Source of the DNA: Comamonadaceae bacterium
Lineage (GTDB): Bacteria > Pseudomonadota > Gammaproteobacteria > Burkholderiales > Burkholderiaceae_C
Length of the DNA: 33,012 nucleotides
Direction of reading: 5' to 3'
NCBI GenBank assembly: GCA_023259355.1
Contig: JAHFQI010000017.1
Span: 1 to 33,012 of the forward strand
How positions within the stretch are numbered: the stretch's first letter is position 1; each line of letters starts with the position of its first letter. Positions 12,820 through 18,925 of this stretch are shown here, piece after piece. Under the pieces are notes generated by a model that worked only from the letters and a program-made list of their open reading frames with translations, was not told the DNA's origin and made no database searches. The translations under genes and the position numbers were made by a program.

Positions 12820-12847
12820 CGCATAAGCATGCGCGAAAGCCTTCGTT
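12820..12847 (+). promoter_or_regulatory. Candidate regulatory motif copy C: CGCAT-N16-CTTCGTT
   Basis: CGCAT 12820-12824 followed after exactly 16 nt by CTTCGTT 12841-12847; 61 nt upstream of the SBP start at 12909; shares CTTCGTTGGC with copy B. Confidence 0.4.
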
Positions 12848-12908
12848 GGCAGGGCGCGCACCGGCTGGTGCAATGGCCCATCCCTGTCACTCACCGGAGT
12901 TCATCCCC

Positions 12909-13859
12909 ATGCAACGACGCCACTTCCATCGCCTCATGACGGCCTCCGCAGCCGCCGCTTCCTTCCTCTCGCCGGTGCTCGGCCATACCCAGTCGCGCAC
13001 GCTGCTGCGTGCCGGCGACCAGAAGGGCGGACTCCAGGCCCTGCTCGAAGCTGCCGGCGAGCTCAAGAACCTGCCTTATGACATCAAGTGGACCGAGTTC
13101 CCGGCGGCAGCGCCGCTGGCCGAGGCGCTGAATGCCGATGCGGTGGATTTCGGCCCGATCGGCGATGCGCCGCTGCTGTTCACGCTCGCCGCGGGCAGCC
13201 GCGTCAAGGCCTTTGCGGTCAACCGCTCCGACGCGTATGGCACGGCCATCCTCGTGGCGCCGAATTCGCCGCTCAAGGACGCGAAGGACCTCAAGGGCCG
13301 AAGCATCGCCACCAACCGCGGCTCGATCGGCCACTTCGTGAGCCTCAAGGCGCTCGAATCGGTGGGTCTCAAGGCCGACGATGCGCAGATCCGCTTCATT
13401 CCCCCGGCCGACGCCAAGCTGGCCCTGACCCAGGGTTCGGTGGATGCCTGGGCCACCTGGGAACCTTATACCGCGCTGGCCGAAACTGGCGGCCATGCGC
13501 GCGTGCTGGTCAATGGCCGCGGACTGTGGAGCGGGCTGAGCTTCCTCGCCGCCACCGATTCGGCGTTGCGTGACAAGCGCGCGATCCTGCAGGACTTCAA
13601 GCAGCGCGTGGTGCGCGCGCAAGTCTGGTCGTACCAGCGTCCTGCCGAATTCGGTGCGACGCTGGCCCGCATCATCGGCATCCCGGCCGACGCCGCACGC
13701 TTGCAGTTCGAGCGACGCGCGACGCGCTGGCAGGACATCGACAGCCAGGTGATCGCCGACCAGCAGCGCACGGCGGATTTCTACCTGGCCGCCGGCCTGG
13801 TGCGGCAGCGGCTGGACGTGCGCAACACCTTCGACACGAGCTTCAACGCCAGGGCCTGA
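12909..13859 (+). CDS. ABC transporter substrate-binding protein, SsuA-like aliphatic sulfonate family
   Basis: MQRRHFHRLMTASAAAASFLSPVLGHTQ leader, TLLRAGDQKGGLQALLEAAGELKNLPYDIKWTEFPAAAPLAEALNADAVDFGPIGDAP: SsuA hallmark. Confidence 0.95.
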   Translation: MQRRHFHRLMTASAAAASFLSPVLGHTQSRTLLRAGDQKGGLQALLEAAGELKNLPYDIKWTEFPAAAPLAEALNADAVDFGPIGDAPLLFTLAAGSRVKAFAVNRSDAYGTAILVAPNSPLKDAKDLKGRSIATNRGSIGHFVSLKALESVGLKADDAQIRFIPPADAKLALTQGSVDAWATWEPYTALAETGGHARVLVNGRGLWSGLSFLAATDSALRDKRAILQDFKQRVVRAQVWSYQRPAEFGATLARIIGIPADAARLQFERRATRWQDIDSQVIADQQRTADFYLAAGLVRQRLDVRNTFDTSFNARA

Positions 13860-14259: not shown

Positions 14260-14727
14260 ATGACGCATGTATCGGAGTCTTCCAGGGTGGCCGATCCGCT
14301 GGAACCGGTCCGGGTCTTGGCGCTCGCCACGGGCCTTTCCTATGCGGGCGGTGTCCCGCCGCACCTGGCCTGGGCGCTGTTTTCGGCCGGGGACGCGCTG
14401 CTGGTCGACGTGCGCACGGCCGAGGAGCGCAAGTTCGTCGGCCATGTGCCGGGTAGCCTGCACGTGGCCTGGGCGACCGGCACGAGCCTGACGCGCAATC
14501 CGCGTTTCGCCCGCGAGCTGGAGGCCAAGGTCGGCAAGACCGCGACGCTGCTGCTGCTGTGCCGCAGCGGCAAGCGTTCGGCCCTGGCGGCCGAGGTGGC
14601 GGCCAAGGCCGGTTTCACGAACGTGTTCAACGTCCTCGAAGGCTTCGAGGGCGAGATCGACGCGCAGCAGCACCGGGGCGCGCAGGATGGCTGGCGCCAT
14701 CTCGGCCTGCCCTGGGTCCAGGATTGA
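14260..14727 (+). CDS. Single-domain rhodanese-like sulfurtransferase
   Basis: DALLVDVRTAEERKFVGHVPGSLHVAW, LLLLCRSGKRSALAAEVAAKAGFTNVFNVLEGFEGE: rhodanese with active Cys loop. Confidence 0.93.
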   Translation: MTHVSESSRVADPLEPVRVLALATGLSYAGGVPPHLAWALFSAGDALLVDVRTAEERKFVGHVPGSLHVAWATGTSLTRNPRFARELEAKVGKTATLLLLCRSGKRSALAAEVAAKAGFTNVFNVLEGFEGEIDAQQHRGAQDGWRHLGLPWVQD

Positions 14728-14743: not shown

Positions 14744-15691
14744 ATGACCACCGTATTGGCCATCAAACCGCCGGATCAGCGCGCGCCCTTGTTCGACCTG
14801 CAGCAGGTGGTCAGCGGCCTGGCCGCAGTGCGCCAGCGCTGGCGTGAGGCGCAGCAGCGTTCCACCGAACCGGGTGGACGCGAGCTGCCTTCGCGTGACG
14901 CGCTCGCGCAGATCATGGACGGGCTGCGCGGCGCGCTGTTCCCCATGCGCCTGGGGCCGCCCGACCTGCGCCAGGAGAGCGAGGATTTCTACGTTGGGCA
15001 CACGCTCGACACCGTGCTGCACGCCTTGCTGGTGCAGGTGCGGCTGGAACTGGGGTACGACGCGCGCCATGGCGCGCAGGCCCCCGACGGCCTGTTGGAG
15101 CAGCGCGCGCTGCGCATCGTGCGCGAGTTTGCGCACGACCTGCCGCGCATCCGTGCCCTGCTCGACAGCGACGTGGTGGCGGCCTTTGAAGGCGACCCCG
15201 CGGCGCGCAGCGTGGACGAAGTGCTGCTGTGCTACCCGGGCATCCTGGCCGTGATCCACCACCGCGTGGCGCACCGCCTGTACGAGTTGGGCGTGCCGCT
15301 GCTGGCGCGCATCGTGGCCGAGCTCGCGCATGGCCAGACCGGTGTCGACATCCATCCGGGCGCGACCATCGGCGCCGGCTTCTTCATCGACCATGGCACG
15401 GGTGTCGTGATAGGCGAGACCGCCGTGATCGGCGAGCGCGTGCGCGTCTACCAGGCCGTGACACTGGGCGCGCGCAGCTTTCCCACCGACGCCTCGGGCC
15501 ATCCGCTCAAGGGTCTGCCGCGCCATCCCGTGGTCGAGGATGACGTGGTGATCTATGCCGGCGCGACCGTGCTCGGCCGGGTGACCGTGGGGCGCGGCGC
15601 CACCGTCGGCGGCAACGTCTGGGTGACGCACGACGTGCCGCCCGGTGCGAACGTCACGCAGGCGCGCCACCACGAGTCCGCAGGAACCTGA
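14744..15691 (+). CDS. Serine O-acetyltransferase (CysE/EpsC type)
   Basis: HHRVAHRLYELGVPLLARIVAELAHGQTGVDIHPGATIGAGFFIDHGTGVVIGETAVIGERVRVYQAVTLGARSF...HPVVEDDVVIYAGATVLGRVTVG left-handed beta-helix hexapeptides. Confidence 0.94.
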   Translation: MTTVLAIKPPDQRAPLFDLQQVVSGLAAVRQRWREAQQRSTEPGGRELPSRDALAQIMDGLRGALFPMRLGPPDLRQESEDFYVGHTLDTVLHALLVQVRLELGYDARHGAQAPDGLLEQRALRIVREFAHDLPRIRALLDSDVVAAFEGDPAARSVDEVLLCYPGILAVIHHRVAHRLYELGVPLLARIVAELAHGQTGVDIHPGATIGAGFFIDHGTGVVIGETAVIGERVRVYQAVTLGARSFPTDASGHPLKGLPRHPVVEDDVVIYAGATVLGRVTVGRGATVGGNVWVTHDVPPGANVTQARHHESAGT

Positions 15692-15724
15692 ATGGCGCCC
15701 GGCCTCCCTTGCGTTGCGACGCCC

Positions 15725-15994
15725 ATGACCCAGCTTGTCGCCAGTTTCGGCCTTGCGATCCGCCAGTTGCGCGAGCGGCAGGGCTGGTCACAGGAATCCC
15801 TGGCCGGGCGCGCTGACCTCCATCGCCCCTACGTGGGCGAACTCGAACGCGGCCAGGCGATCCCCTCGCTGGTGACGCTCGAAAAGCTGGCCAGTGCGTT
15901 GGGCCTGAGCCTGGCGAACCTGCTGGCCCACGCCGAGCGCATTTCACAGCGCCGGCTGGTCCGGGGCATCGAGTTGAAGGCGATAGCCTGTTGA
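15725..15994 (+). CDS. XRE-family helix-turn-helix transcriptional regulator
   Basis: FGLAIRQLRERQGWSQESLAGRADLHRPYVGELERGQAIPSLVTLEKLASALGLSLANLL; alternative start at 15692. Confidence 0.92.
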   Translation: MTQLVASFGLAIRQLRERQGWSQESLAGRADLHRPYVGELERGQAIPSLVTLEKLASALGLSLANLLAHAERISQRRLVRGIELKAIAC

Positions 15995-16060: not shown

Positions 16061-16990
16061 ATGTCGGAAACCACCGTATCCCAGCTGGCGCTGGGTGACA
16101 ACGCCGCCCGCCAACTGGCGAATGCGACCAAGACCGCGCCGGTCCTTTCCACCATCAGCCCGCGCTGGCTGACCCATCTGCTGCAGTGGCTGCCGGTCGA
16201 AGCCGGCATCTACCGCCTCAACCGGGTGAAGAACCCCGAAGCCCTGCGCGTGCTGTGCGCCAAGCGCGACGAGTCAGAACTGCCGACCACCTTTGCCGAT
16301 TACGACGAGAAGCCGCGCGAGTACTTCCTGAACGCCGTCTCCACGGTGCTGGACGTGCACACGCGGGTGTCCGACCTCTACAGCAGCCCGCATGACCAGA
16401 TCAAGGAGCAGCTGCGCCTGACGATCGAGACGATCAAGGAAAAGCAGGAAAGCGAGCTGATCAACAACCCGGACTATGGCCTGCTGGCCAGCGTCCACCC
16501 CGACCAGATCGTCTACCCGCTGACCGGCGCGCCGACCCCCGACGACCTGGACGAGTTGCTCACCAAAGTCTGGAAGGAGCCGGCCTTCTTCCTGACCCAC
16601 CCGCTGGCGATTGCCGCTTTCGGCCGCGAGTGCACCCGCCGCGGCGTGCCGCCGCCGACCGTGAGCCTGTTCGGCTCGCAGTTCCTGACCTGGCGGGGCA
16701 TCCCGCTGATCCCTTCGGACAAGGTGCCGGTGGCCGATGGCAAGACCAAGATCCTGCTGCTGCGCGTGGGCGAGAAGCGCCAGGGCGTGGTCGGGCTGTA
16801 CCAGCCGGGTCTCGCGGGCGAACAGAGCCCGGGCCTGTCGGTGCGCTTCATGGGCATCAGCCGCAACGCCATCGCCTCCTACCTGATCAGCCTGTACTGC
16901 TCGTTGGCCGTGCAGACCGACGATGCGCTGGCGGTGCTGGAGGATGTGGAAGTGGGCAAGTTCCACGAGTATCCGGACACCTACAAGTAA
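16061..16990 (+). CDS. Family 2A encapsulin nanocompartment shell protein (SrpI-like)
   Basis: 309 aa: LALGDNAARQLANATKTAPVLSTISPRWLTHLLQWLPVEAGIYRLNRVKN...YDEKPREYFLNAVSTVLDVHTRVSDLYSSPHDQIKEQLRLTIETIKEKQESELINNPDYGLL...PLAIAAFGRECTRRGVPPPTVSLFGSQFLTWRGIPLIPSDKV: characteristic of the SrpI/MMP-I encapsulin family; adjacent cysteine desulfurase. Confidence 0.93.
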   Translation: MSETTVSQLALGDNAARQLANATKTAPVLSTISPRWLTHLLQWLPVEAGIYRLNRVKNPEALRVLCAKRDESELPTTFADYDEKPREYFLNAVSTVLDVHTRVSDLYSSPHDQIKEQLRLTIETIKEKQESELINNPDYGLLASVHPDQIVYPLTGAPTPDDLDELLTKVWKEPAFFLTHPLAIAAFGRECTRRGVPPPTVSLFGSQFLTWRGIPLIPSDKVPVADGKTKILLLRVGEKRQGVVGLYQPGLAGEQSPGLSVRFMGISRNAIASYLISLYCSLAVQTDDALAVLEDVEVGKFHEYPDTYK

Positions 16991-16999
16991 GGTCGGACG

Positions 17000-18925
17000 A
17001 TGTCTTCATCTGAAGTCCTGACGCCTGACGTCGAAGCGACGCCGCCGCCTGGCCTGCCCGATCCGGCGGTGCTGGCGCGCCTGGCGGGCGAATTCTTCGC
17101 GGCGCTGCCCGGCACGTCAGCGGCCGGTGGTGTGCCGGTGCCGTCCAACGCGCAGCCGGCGGGCCTGTCGCTGCCACCCGGGCTGTCCGGGCCGGCCACG
17201 CTGGCGGCCGTGCCCTTCGGCGCGATCCCGCCCGGCGCCAACCTGCTGCCGACCTCGCCGCAGACACCCGCCAATGCCGGCGCCTCGCTGCCGGCCTTGG
17301 TGCCGCACGCGCAGGCGCCCAATGGCTTGCCGGACCATGTCCTGCAGGCGGCGCCCGGCTACGACGGCCGATTGGGCAGCCAGGCGATCGGCGTGCCCCG
17401 GCTCGGGCCGGCGCCAACGGCTGCCGTGCCGGCTTCGGCGCCGCGCGGATCGGCGCCCGCCGCGTCGGTGCCGACGCCGACCGCGCCTGCCGCCTCGCCC
17501 TATTACTTCCTTGCCGAGCCGGGCCTGGCGGGTTCGGGCATTCCGACGGCTGGGCCAACCGCGCTGCCCGACGATCGCCTGACGGCGCAGAGCTTCGGCC
17601 TGCCGGGCAGCGAGGCCTTGCGCGAGTTGCTGAGCACGGGGCGTCGCGCGCCCTCGGTGCCGGGCGACCGTGGCATCCCGCAGGCCTCGTCGTCGGCGCA
17701 CCCGCCCTTCGACGTCAACGCCATCCGGCGGGATTTCCCGATCCTTCAGGAGCGCGTCAACGGCCGCCAGCTCGTCTGGTTCGACAACGCCGCCACCACG
17801 CACAAGCCGCAGGCGGTGATCGACCGGCTGGCCTACTTCTATGCGCACGAGAACTCCAACATTCACCGCGCGGCCCACGAGCTGGCTGCGCGCGCCACGG
17901 ATGCCTACGAGGGGGCGCGCGAGACGGTACGCCGCTTCATCGGTGCCAGCTCGACCGAGGAGATCATCTTCGTGCGCGGCACCACCGAGGCGATCAACCT
18001 GGTGGCCAAGAGTTGGGGGGCGAAGAACATCGGCGCCGGCGACGAGATCATCGTCTCCCACCTCGAGCACCACGCCAACATCGTGCCGTGGCAGCAGCTG
18101 GCGGCCGAGAAGGGCGCGAAGATCCGCGTGATTCCGGTCGATGACTCGGGCCAGGTGATCCTGGAAGAGTACCAGCGCCTGCTCAACGACAAGACCAAGA
18201 TTGTCTCGGTCACGCAGGTGTCAAATGCGCTCGGCACGGTCGTGCCGGTGAAGGAGATCGTGGAGATCGCGCACCGTCACGGTGTGCGCACGCTGGTCGA
18301 CGGGGCACAGTCCGTGAGCCACATGCGCGTGGACGTGCGCGCCTTAGGCACCGACTTCTTCGTCTTCTCGGGCCACAAGATCTTCGGGCCGACCGGTATC
18401 GGCGTGGTCTACGGCAAGCGTGACGTGCTGGAAGACATGCCGCCGTGGCAGGGTGGCGGCAACATGATTGCCGACGTGACTTTCGAGAAAACCGTCTACC
18501 ACGGCCCGCCCACCCGCTTCGAGGCTGGCACCGGCAACATCGCCGACGCGGTGGGCCTGGGCGCGGCGCTGGAGTACGTCGAACGCATCGGCATCGAGGC
18601 CATAGGCCGCTATGAGCACGATCTGCTGGCGTACGCCACGCACCACATGCAGCCGATCAAGGGCGTCCGGCTGATCGGCACGGCGCGTGACAAGGCCAGC
18701 GTGTTGAGCTTCGTGCTGGACGGCTACAGCACCGACGAAGTGGGCAAGGCGCTCAACCAGGAAGGCATCGCGGTACGCACCGGCCACCACTGCGCCCAGC
18801 CGATCCTGCGCCGCTTTGGCCTGGAGGCGACGGTGCGCCCCTCGCTGGCGTTCTACAACACCTGTGAGGAAGTTGATCGCATGGTGACCGTGGTTCGTCG
18901 CCTGAGCGCCGCGACCTCGCGATAA
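17000..18925 (+). CDS. Family 2A encapsulin cargo: cysteine desulfurase (SufS-like, type II) with ~236-aa disordered N-terminal domain
   Basis: Catalytic domain FDVNAIRRDFPILQERVNGRQLVWFDNAATTHKPQAVID..., PLP site FSGHKIFGPTGIGVVYGK, active Cys region VRTGHHCAQPILRRFG; residues 1-236 are Pro/Ala/Gly-rich. Confidence 0.95.
   Translation: MSSSEVLTPDVEATPPPGLPDPAVLARLAGEFFAALPGTSAAGGVPVPSNAQPAGLSLPPGLSGPATLAAVPFGAIPPGANLLPTSPQTPANAGASLPALVPHAQAPNGLPDHVLQAAPGYDGRLGSQAIGVPRLGPAPTAAVPASAPRGSAPAASVPTPTAPAASPYYFLAEPGLAGSGIPTAGPTALPDDRLTAQSFGLPGSEALRELLSTGRRAPSVPGDRGIPQASSSAHPPFDVNAIRRDFPILQERVNGRQLVWFDNAATTHKPQAVIDRLAYFYAHENSNIHRAAHELAARATDAYEGARETVRRFIGASSTEEIIFVRGTTEAINLVAKSWGAKNIGAGDEIIVSHLEHHANIVPWQQLAAEKGAKIRVIPVDDSGQVILEEYQRLLNDKTKIVSVTQVSNALGTVVPVKEIVEIAHRHGVRTLVDGAQSVSHMRVDVRALGTDFFVFSGHKIFGPTGIGVVYGKRDVLEDMPPWQGGGNMIADVTFEKTVYHGPPTRFEAGTGNIADAVGLGAALEYVERIGIEAIGRYEHDLLAYATHHMQPIKGVRLIGTARDKASVLSFVLDGYSTDEVGKALNQEGIAVRTGHHCAQPILRRFGLEATVRPSLAFYNTCEEVDRMVTVVRRLSAATSR

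Follow-up and report, generated by a model that had tools for sequence, protein, structure and literature searches.

Conserved islands in the disordered N-terminal domain of a family 2A encapsulin cysteine desulfurase and their possible roles in cargo docking

The capture of cargo by family 2 encapsulins is poorly resolved. In the family 2A system of S. elongatus PCC 7942, the SrpI shell is associated with a cysteine desulfurase cargo, CyD (Synpcc7942_B2661), and Nichols et al. (2021, eLife, PMC8049743) reported two MEME motifs, LARLANEFFS and AASPYYFLDG, that are present in most SrpI-associated CyDs. Among the sfGFP fusions that they describe for the S. elongatus protein, CyD residues 1-225 make the best loader and residues 1-100 a weaker one, while residues 155-183 give no loading (PMC8049743). 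The same account records an increase in CyD activity upon encapsulation, as well as cargo density at the lumenal three-fold axis near residues F262 and Y273 of SrpI (PMC8049743). The published difference map corresponds to one or two desulfurase copies in a shell of 60 subunits, and free sites are therefore plentiful. A survey from 2021 treats the desulfurases as cargo without a defined targeting peptide (PMC8346489). Here we analyze a locus of this type from a Comamonadaceae bacterium, using as our window the whole 33,012-nucleotide stretch of contig JAHFQI010000017.1, and concentrate on the N-terminal region of its desulfurase.

The encapsulin locus and its neighborhood

There is no doubt that the gene at 17000-18925 on the forward strand encodes the desulfurase cargo of a family 2A encapsulin. 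The ORF is uninterrupted, opens with an ATG and encodes a protein of 641 aa, hereinafter CyD, of which residues 12-635 match NF041166 ('family 2A encapsulin nanocompartment cargo protein cysteine desulfurase') with 932.3 bits against a cut-off of 800. Its SufS-like catalytic part occupies residues 237-641 (17708-18922, forward strand), with the domain matches to TIGR01979 (562 bits versus a cut-off of 475) and PF00266 covering residues 237-635, and C598, in a catalytic-type RTGHHC motif, is invariant across the alignment. The ATG at 17000 adjoins the gene for an SrpI-type family 2A shell protein of 309 aa (16061-16990, forward strand; NF041162, PF19307; PDB 8t6r and 6x8m), whose stop codon ends at 16990. 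This shell matches NF041162 over its full length (532 bits, cut-off 380) and has no insertion, and hence is of the kind without a cNMP domain. It shares 82-84% identity with its counterparts in Acinetobacter baumannii, Burkholderia and Variovorax, compared with 74% for S. elongatus SrpI. Its three-fold residues F263 and Y274, which are the equivalents of F262 and Y273 of SrpI, are invariant in the 129 shells that we collected.

Further upstream on the forward strand are two genes that usually accompany family 2A desulfurases, one for a rhodanese-domain protein (14260-14727; PF00581) and the other for the serine O-acetyltransferase EpsC (14744-15691; NF041874 above cut-off). The order rhodanese, EpsC, small HTH gene and shell is the same as in Variovorax sp. 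PBL-E5 (locus L067). The small gene that separates epsC from the shell gene, at 15692-15994, encodes a Cro/C1-type HTH protein that is likely to be the regulator of the operon; its Variovorax counterpart is at 2706-2975 of L067. Immediately upstream of the encapsulin operon, at 12846-13859, lies a gene for an NMT1-like periplasmic substrate-binding protein of the ABC type, possibly a component for the uptake of sulfonate or a similar compound, which would fit a neighborhood concerned with sulfur supply. The kinship of encapsulin shells with HK97 capsids is well known. About 670 plasmid records match the present shell at less than 60% identity, and the enterobacterial ones among those listed, at 25-28%, carry the annotation phage major capsid protein.

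Conserved islands in the N-terminal domain

Residues 1-236 of CyD (17000-17707, forward strand) form a disordered N-terminal domain (NTD), as judged from composition, the AlphaFold2 (AF2) model and homology to the NTD of S. elongatus CyD. An earlier note, made from the letters of this DNA, had described the region as rich in Pro, Ala and Gly, which is indeed the case: they make up 18.6%, 18.6% and 11.4% of it (48.7% together), and Lys and Trp are absent. The note also held that a disordered N-terminal domain directs encapsulation in these systems. The 225-aa NTD of S. elongatus CyD, which has been tested (PMC8049743), is homologous to the present one; this bears the statement out and marks the present NTD as the probable cargo-loading domain. 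In an AF2 model computed on an 81-sequence alignment, pLDDT falls below 50 at residues 1-13, 39-107, 109-167, 173-194 and 221-230; the ordered segments are 14-38 and 195-220, along with 168-172, where it is locally raised. Helices are predicted at residues 22-34 (pLDDT of about 86) and 204-212 (about 80-81). On folding the NTD without the catalytic domain, they were recovered with a pLDDT of 87 (versus 86) and 78 (versus 81), and this similar confidence suggests that neither helix depends on the enzyme for its order. There is no solved structure of an NTD in the PDB, nor did a complex of a shell with any of the segments described below turn up there.

Three islands within this domain had been singled out in the earlier note, AVLARLAGEFFAALP (17066-17110), YYFLAEPGL (17501-17527) and GLPGSEALRELLSTGRR (17597-17647), with exact coordinates, and their conservation among the N-termini of family 2A desulfurases had been proposed as a check. 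We drew on plasmids, whole genomes and GTDB contigs for CyDs encoded beside family 2 shells, which yielded 104 non-redundant NTDs, and compared the present NTD with each of them in sliding windows of 15 residues, each against 100 shuffles. The highest similarity, with a mean Z of up to 7.7, falls at residues 19-39; further peaks lie at 190-213 (up to 4.6), about 97-135 (up to 4.0) and 157-175 (about 3), and the Pro/Ala-rich linkers are mostly at a Z of about 0-1.5. All three islands are conserved far above the shuffled controls, and the four peaks indicate that the three are real, that one further island had been overlooked and that the third needs to be shifted upstream. We number the islands accordingly, with I, III and IV being the three noted earlier and II the additional one.

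Island I (GLPDPAVLARLAGEFFAALPG, residues 18-38; 17051-17113, forward strand) reaches upstream to a GLPD at 17051 and follows the consensus GLPDxAxLARLAxEFFAALP; with its helix at 22-34 it is the main candidate for a docking helix. Island II (PALVPHAQAPNGLPD...APGYDGRLGSQAIGVP, residues 98-133; 17291-17398, forward strand; mean Z 2-4), the overlooked patch, whose peak covers LVPHAQAPNGLPD...YDGRLGSQAIGVP with a Z of up to 4, displays no order in the AF2 model and occurs mainly in closer relatives. Island III (ASPYYFLAEP, residues 165-174; 17492-17521, forward strand; consensus SPYYFL) begins upstream with the ASP at 17492 and includes the residues of raised pLDDT, 168-172. Island IV (QSFGLPGSEALRELLS, residues 197-212; 17588-17635, forward strand; consensus SFGLPGxxxLRxLL) has as its conserved core QSFGLPGSEALRELL (17588-17632), which starts some 3-6 residues before the version noted earlier; the C-terminal end of that version, STGRR, is without conservation. 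Its helix at 204-212 is amphipathic, and the island has the highest hydrophobic moment within the NTD. The published motifs take the form LARLAGEFFA at residues 25-34 and AASPYYFLAE at residues 164-173 of the present CyD; islands I and III are not new, being the LARLANEFFS and AASPYYFLDG published in 2021.

Iterated motif models, applied to 105 NTDs at a 1% per-sequence threshold, matched island I in 101, island III in 102, island IV in 88 and island II in 52 of them; a strict island IV model, trained with island I masked, matched 73. All 77 orthologs with a catalytic domain at least 75% identical to ours possess island I, as do 14 of the 19 at 70-75% identity; island III is present in 9 of these 19. 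Island II is present in 37 of 43 orthologs at 80% identity or above and in 2 of the 19 at 70-75%. Divergent forms of island I could be recognized by eye in orthologs missed by the window-based comparison (e.g. LDIDELTRIANELYAEGFP in locus L196), and a weak stretch of this kind, HADLVGRLAREIYGQG, in the family 2B-like locus L010. The sampled orthologs are mostly Betaproteobacteria, so that a part of the conservation reflects relatedness.

The common arrangement of these elements is I-(II)-III-IV-III', in which a second YYF motif follows island IV (48 of 105 NTDs); two YYF copies in any arrangement are found in 56 of 105. The present protein has a single copy and the layout I-II-III-IV, and the segment that links island IV to the catalytic domain (17636-17707) contains neither an aromatic residue nor a second YYF motif. 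Across orthologs the linkers vary from 14 to 232 aa between islands I and III and from 15 to 72 aa between III and IV, as expected of independent linear motifs on a tether. Islands III and IV are confined to the catalytic-proximal half of the NTD, and the spacing between the last YYF copy and the catalytic domain has a median of 21 residues.

As a control, we scanned 43 SufS loci that lack a shell gene (median open N-extension 21 aa; 9 with an extension of at least 60 aa) and obtained zero matches to islands I, III and IV. A degenerate island I pattern, which divergent forms would escape, matches only CyD in the same genome, with no other cargo candidate. An 18-fold excess of raw GLP[DG] counts over shuffles was set aside as evidence, since each island represents one conserved event rather than independent ones. 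The by-eye likeness of island I to the N-arm of the shell (DNAARQLANAT), which might have indicated mimicry, was rejected (p=0.53).

Two further groups of desulfurases delimit the distribution of the islands. The plasmid-borne CyD of Aliarcobacter cibarius (L064:3854-5362) adjoins a family 2A shell, and its NTD of about 96 aa is not rich in Pro and Ala. None of islands I-IV was detected in it, which indicates that they are not universal; judging from its sequence, this CyD must either load in a different way or be strongly diverged. The desulfurases of loci L010, L011, L012, L013 and L073 accompany shells in which the match begins only near residue 58 and which are family 2B-like. Such family 2B-like desulfurases keep a motif of the [FS]xxGxYYFL type before the catalytic domain, with a YYF match in L010, L013 and L073.

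Docking, tethering and alternative roles of the islands

We consider it quite probable that residues 1-236 constitute a Pro/Ala/Gly-rich disordered tether with short linear motifs, among which island I would be the principal docker and islands III and IV auxiliary. The tether with linear motifs is supported by the coincidence of the conservation peaks with the islands and by the AF2 model, in which only islands are ordered. Island I is predicted to form a short amphipathic helix, and it is mainly through this helix that CyD would dock on the lumenal face of the shell, probably close to the three-fold axis; this location is supported by the invariance, among the 129 shells, of the residues beside the cargo density. 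Islands III and IV, each of which alone would be weak or insufficient, may raise loading by avidity or keep the enzyme near the wall. We infer that island I itself touches the shell and that islands III and IV add avidity.

The assignment of these roles is supported by the published S. elongatus constructs, of which 1-100 coincides with island I and 155-183 with the YYF motif. S. elongatus CyD has a divergent island I (ERSLAQLAQAVLQD) that occurs in tandem, at residues 22-41 (L063:3404-3463, FNERSLEQLTQTVLQDLQQA) and 85-104 (L063:3593-3652, IDERSLAQLAQAVLQDPQLA), with a self-similarity of 55, which none of 500 shuffles equaled (maximum 51). The 1-100 construct holds the first copy and most of the second, and the 155-183 construct contains the YYF motif, GSGFYFIDE, at residues 175-183. 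As 1-100 loads and 155-183 does not, the published data point to island I as the loading element and argue against the sufficiency of the YYF motif, the loading result for 1-100 being mapped to island I by similarity because the S. elongatus copy is divergent. By this analogy island I is likely to be a docking site. The proposal of the earlier note that each island is a shell-docking site thus holds for island I at most, and the YYF island is insufficient by itself.

That note had also suggested that several islands could tether one enzyme at several lumenal sites, and the sequences make such multi-site tethering plausible. Island IV is similar to the first half of island I; the two share the pattern GLP[DG]xxxLxxL (column-shuffle p=0.0024 for an island IV model trained with island I masked), and the best match of this model outside island IV falls on island I in 57 of 101 NTDs, as compared with a mean of 14 for models with permuted columns. 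Taken together with this likeness between the two islands, the paired island I copies of S. elongatus, the duplicated YYF motif and the stronger loading by the entire NTD than by residues 1-100 are suggestive of multivalency. Islands I and IV, along with the tandem island I of S. elongatus, could then be versions of one docking helix that engages several equivalent lumenal sites, for which a shell of 60 subunits with one or two CyD copies offers ample room. However, at least one of 50 column-permuted models also reached 57 of 101, and the resemblance may accordingly be a common helix-start pattern; we regard the multivalent reading as tentative and somewhat doubtful. Its corollary, that one NTD bridges shell subunits, is taken jointly with it and is no likelier, and nucleation of shell assembly round the cargo may follow from such bridging. 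The more specific proposal that the NTD is a multivalent shell linker, in which I and IV duplicate a single GLP[DG]-helix docking motif and YYF motifs stand on both sides of IV in the canonical layout, we likewise hold to be possible though rather improbable. If true, one desulfurase would span several lumenal sites, the number of motifs would set the strength of loading and the position, and the duplication of island I in S. elongatus, like the loss of a second YYF motif from the present CyD, would represent evolutionary tuning of valency.

An alternative is that only island I docks, whereas islands III and IV interact with one another, with the catalytic dimer or with a sulfur acceptor, be it the rhodanese of the operon or a SufE-type protein, and in this way regulate activity instead of loading. 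The failure of the S. elongatus YYF segment alone to load sfGFP and the higher CyD activity on encapsulation, both from the account of Nichols et al. (PMC8049743), would suit such a role, as would the catalytic-proximal position of islands III and IV and the short median distance of the last YYF copy from the enzyme. Yet residues 1-225 outload 1-100 when all that they add in S. elongatus is island III and linkers (PMC8049743), helix IV is predicted with similar confidence in the NTD folded alone, island IV is similar to island I and the motifs are missing from all 43 non-encapsulated SufS enzymes; we therefore think this reading unlikely. Far less probable still is that the islands are leftovers of ancestry, or mere hydrophobic stretches of a biased tail, with no specific function. 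The betaproteobacterial bias of the orthologs would favor this notion, but the neighboring linkers of the same sequences remain near zero in the same comparison, islands I and III persist at 70-75% catalytic identity and the YYF match extends to the family 2B-like desulfurases, so that on the sequence evidence it is largely refuted. The docking role of island I, with III and IV as auxiliaries, accordingly remains our preferred reading.

Comparison with described encapsulin systems

The S. elongatus PCC 7942 system resembles the present one in its shell, EpsC and rhodanese genes, in the disordered NTD of about 225 aa, in both published motifs and in the SufS-type catalytic domain (72% identity), and its shell, 74% identical, has the same three-fold residues. 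It differs in the tandem divergent island I and in having no clear island IV, whereas the present CyD combines a canonical island I with islands II and IV and has just one YYF motif. Among catalytic domains, the nearest is that of the M. smegmatis cargo desulfurase 8kg1 (71% identity, TM-score 0.97), which is uninformative on the NTD as the solved chain comprises the catalytic domain only. In the A. baumannii family 2A system (L071), with a shell 82% identical to ours, CyD likewise has islands I, III and IV but differs in a second YYF motif after island IV and in giving no match to island II. A desulfurase encapsulin that stores sulfur was reportedly described by Benisch et al. in Science Advances in 2024, and that work may discuss the loading domain. 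More distantly, the family 2B terpene cyclase cargo with GPTGLGT motifs (PMC8346489) is alike in having short conserved motifs in a disordered tail, one of them repeated, that are proposed to function in loading; it differs in the enzymes, in the motifs and in a shell with a cNMP-binding domain.

Several features go beyond these descriptions, and some of them may be noted elsewhere: the YYF duplication, the resemblance between islands I and IV, the presence of an island II limited to a clade, and island IV itself, which is not named as a conserved helix in the literature searched. The motif map divides the loading domain into four separately testable segments, with island I as the foremost candidate, and indicates which tags should work for engineered loading. 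The system in this window is thus mostly a good example of a known one, to which it adds new detail.
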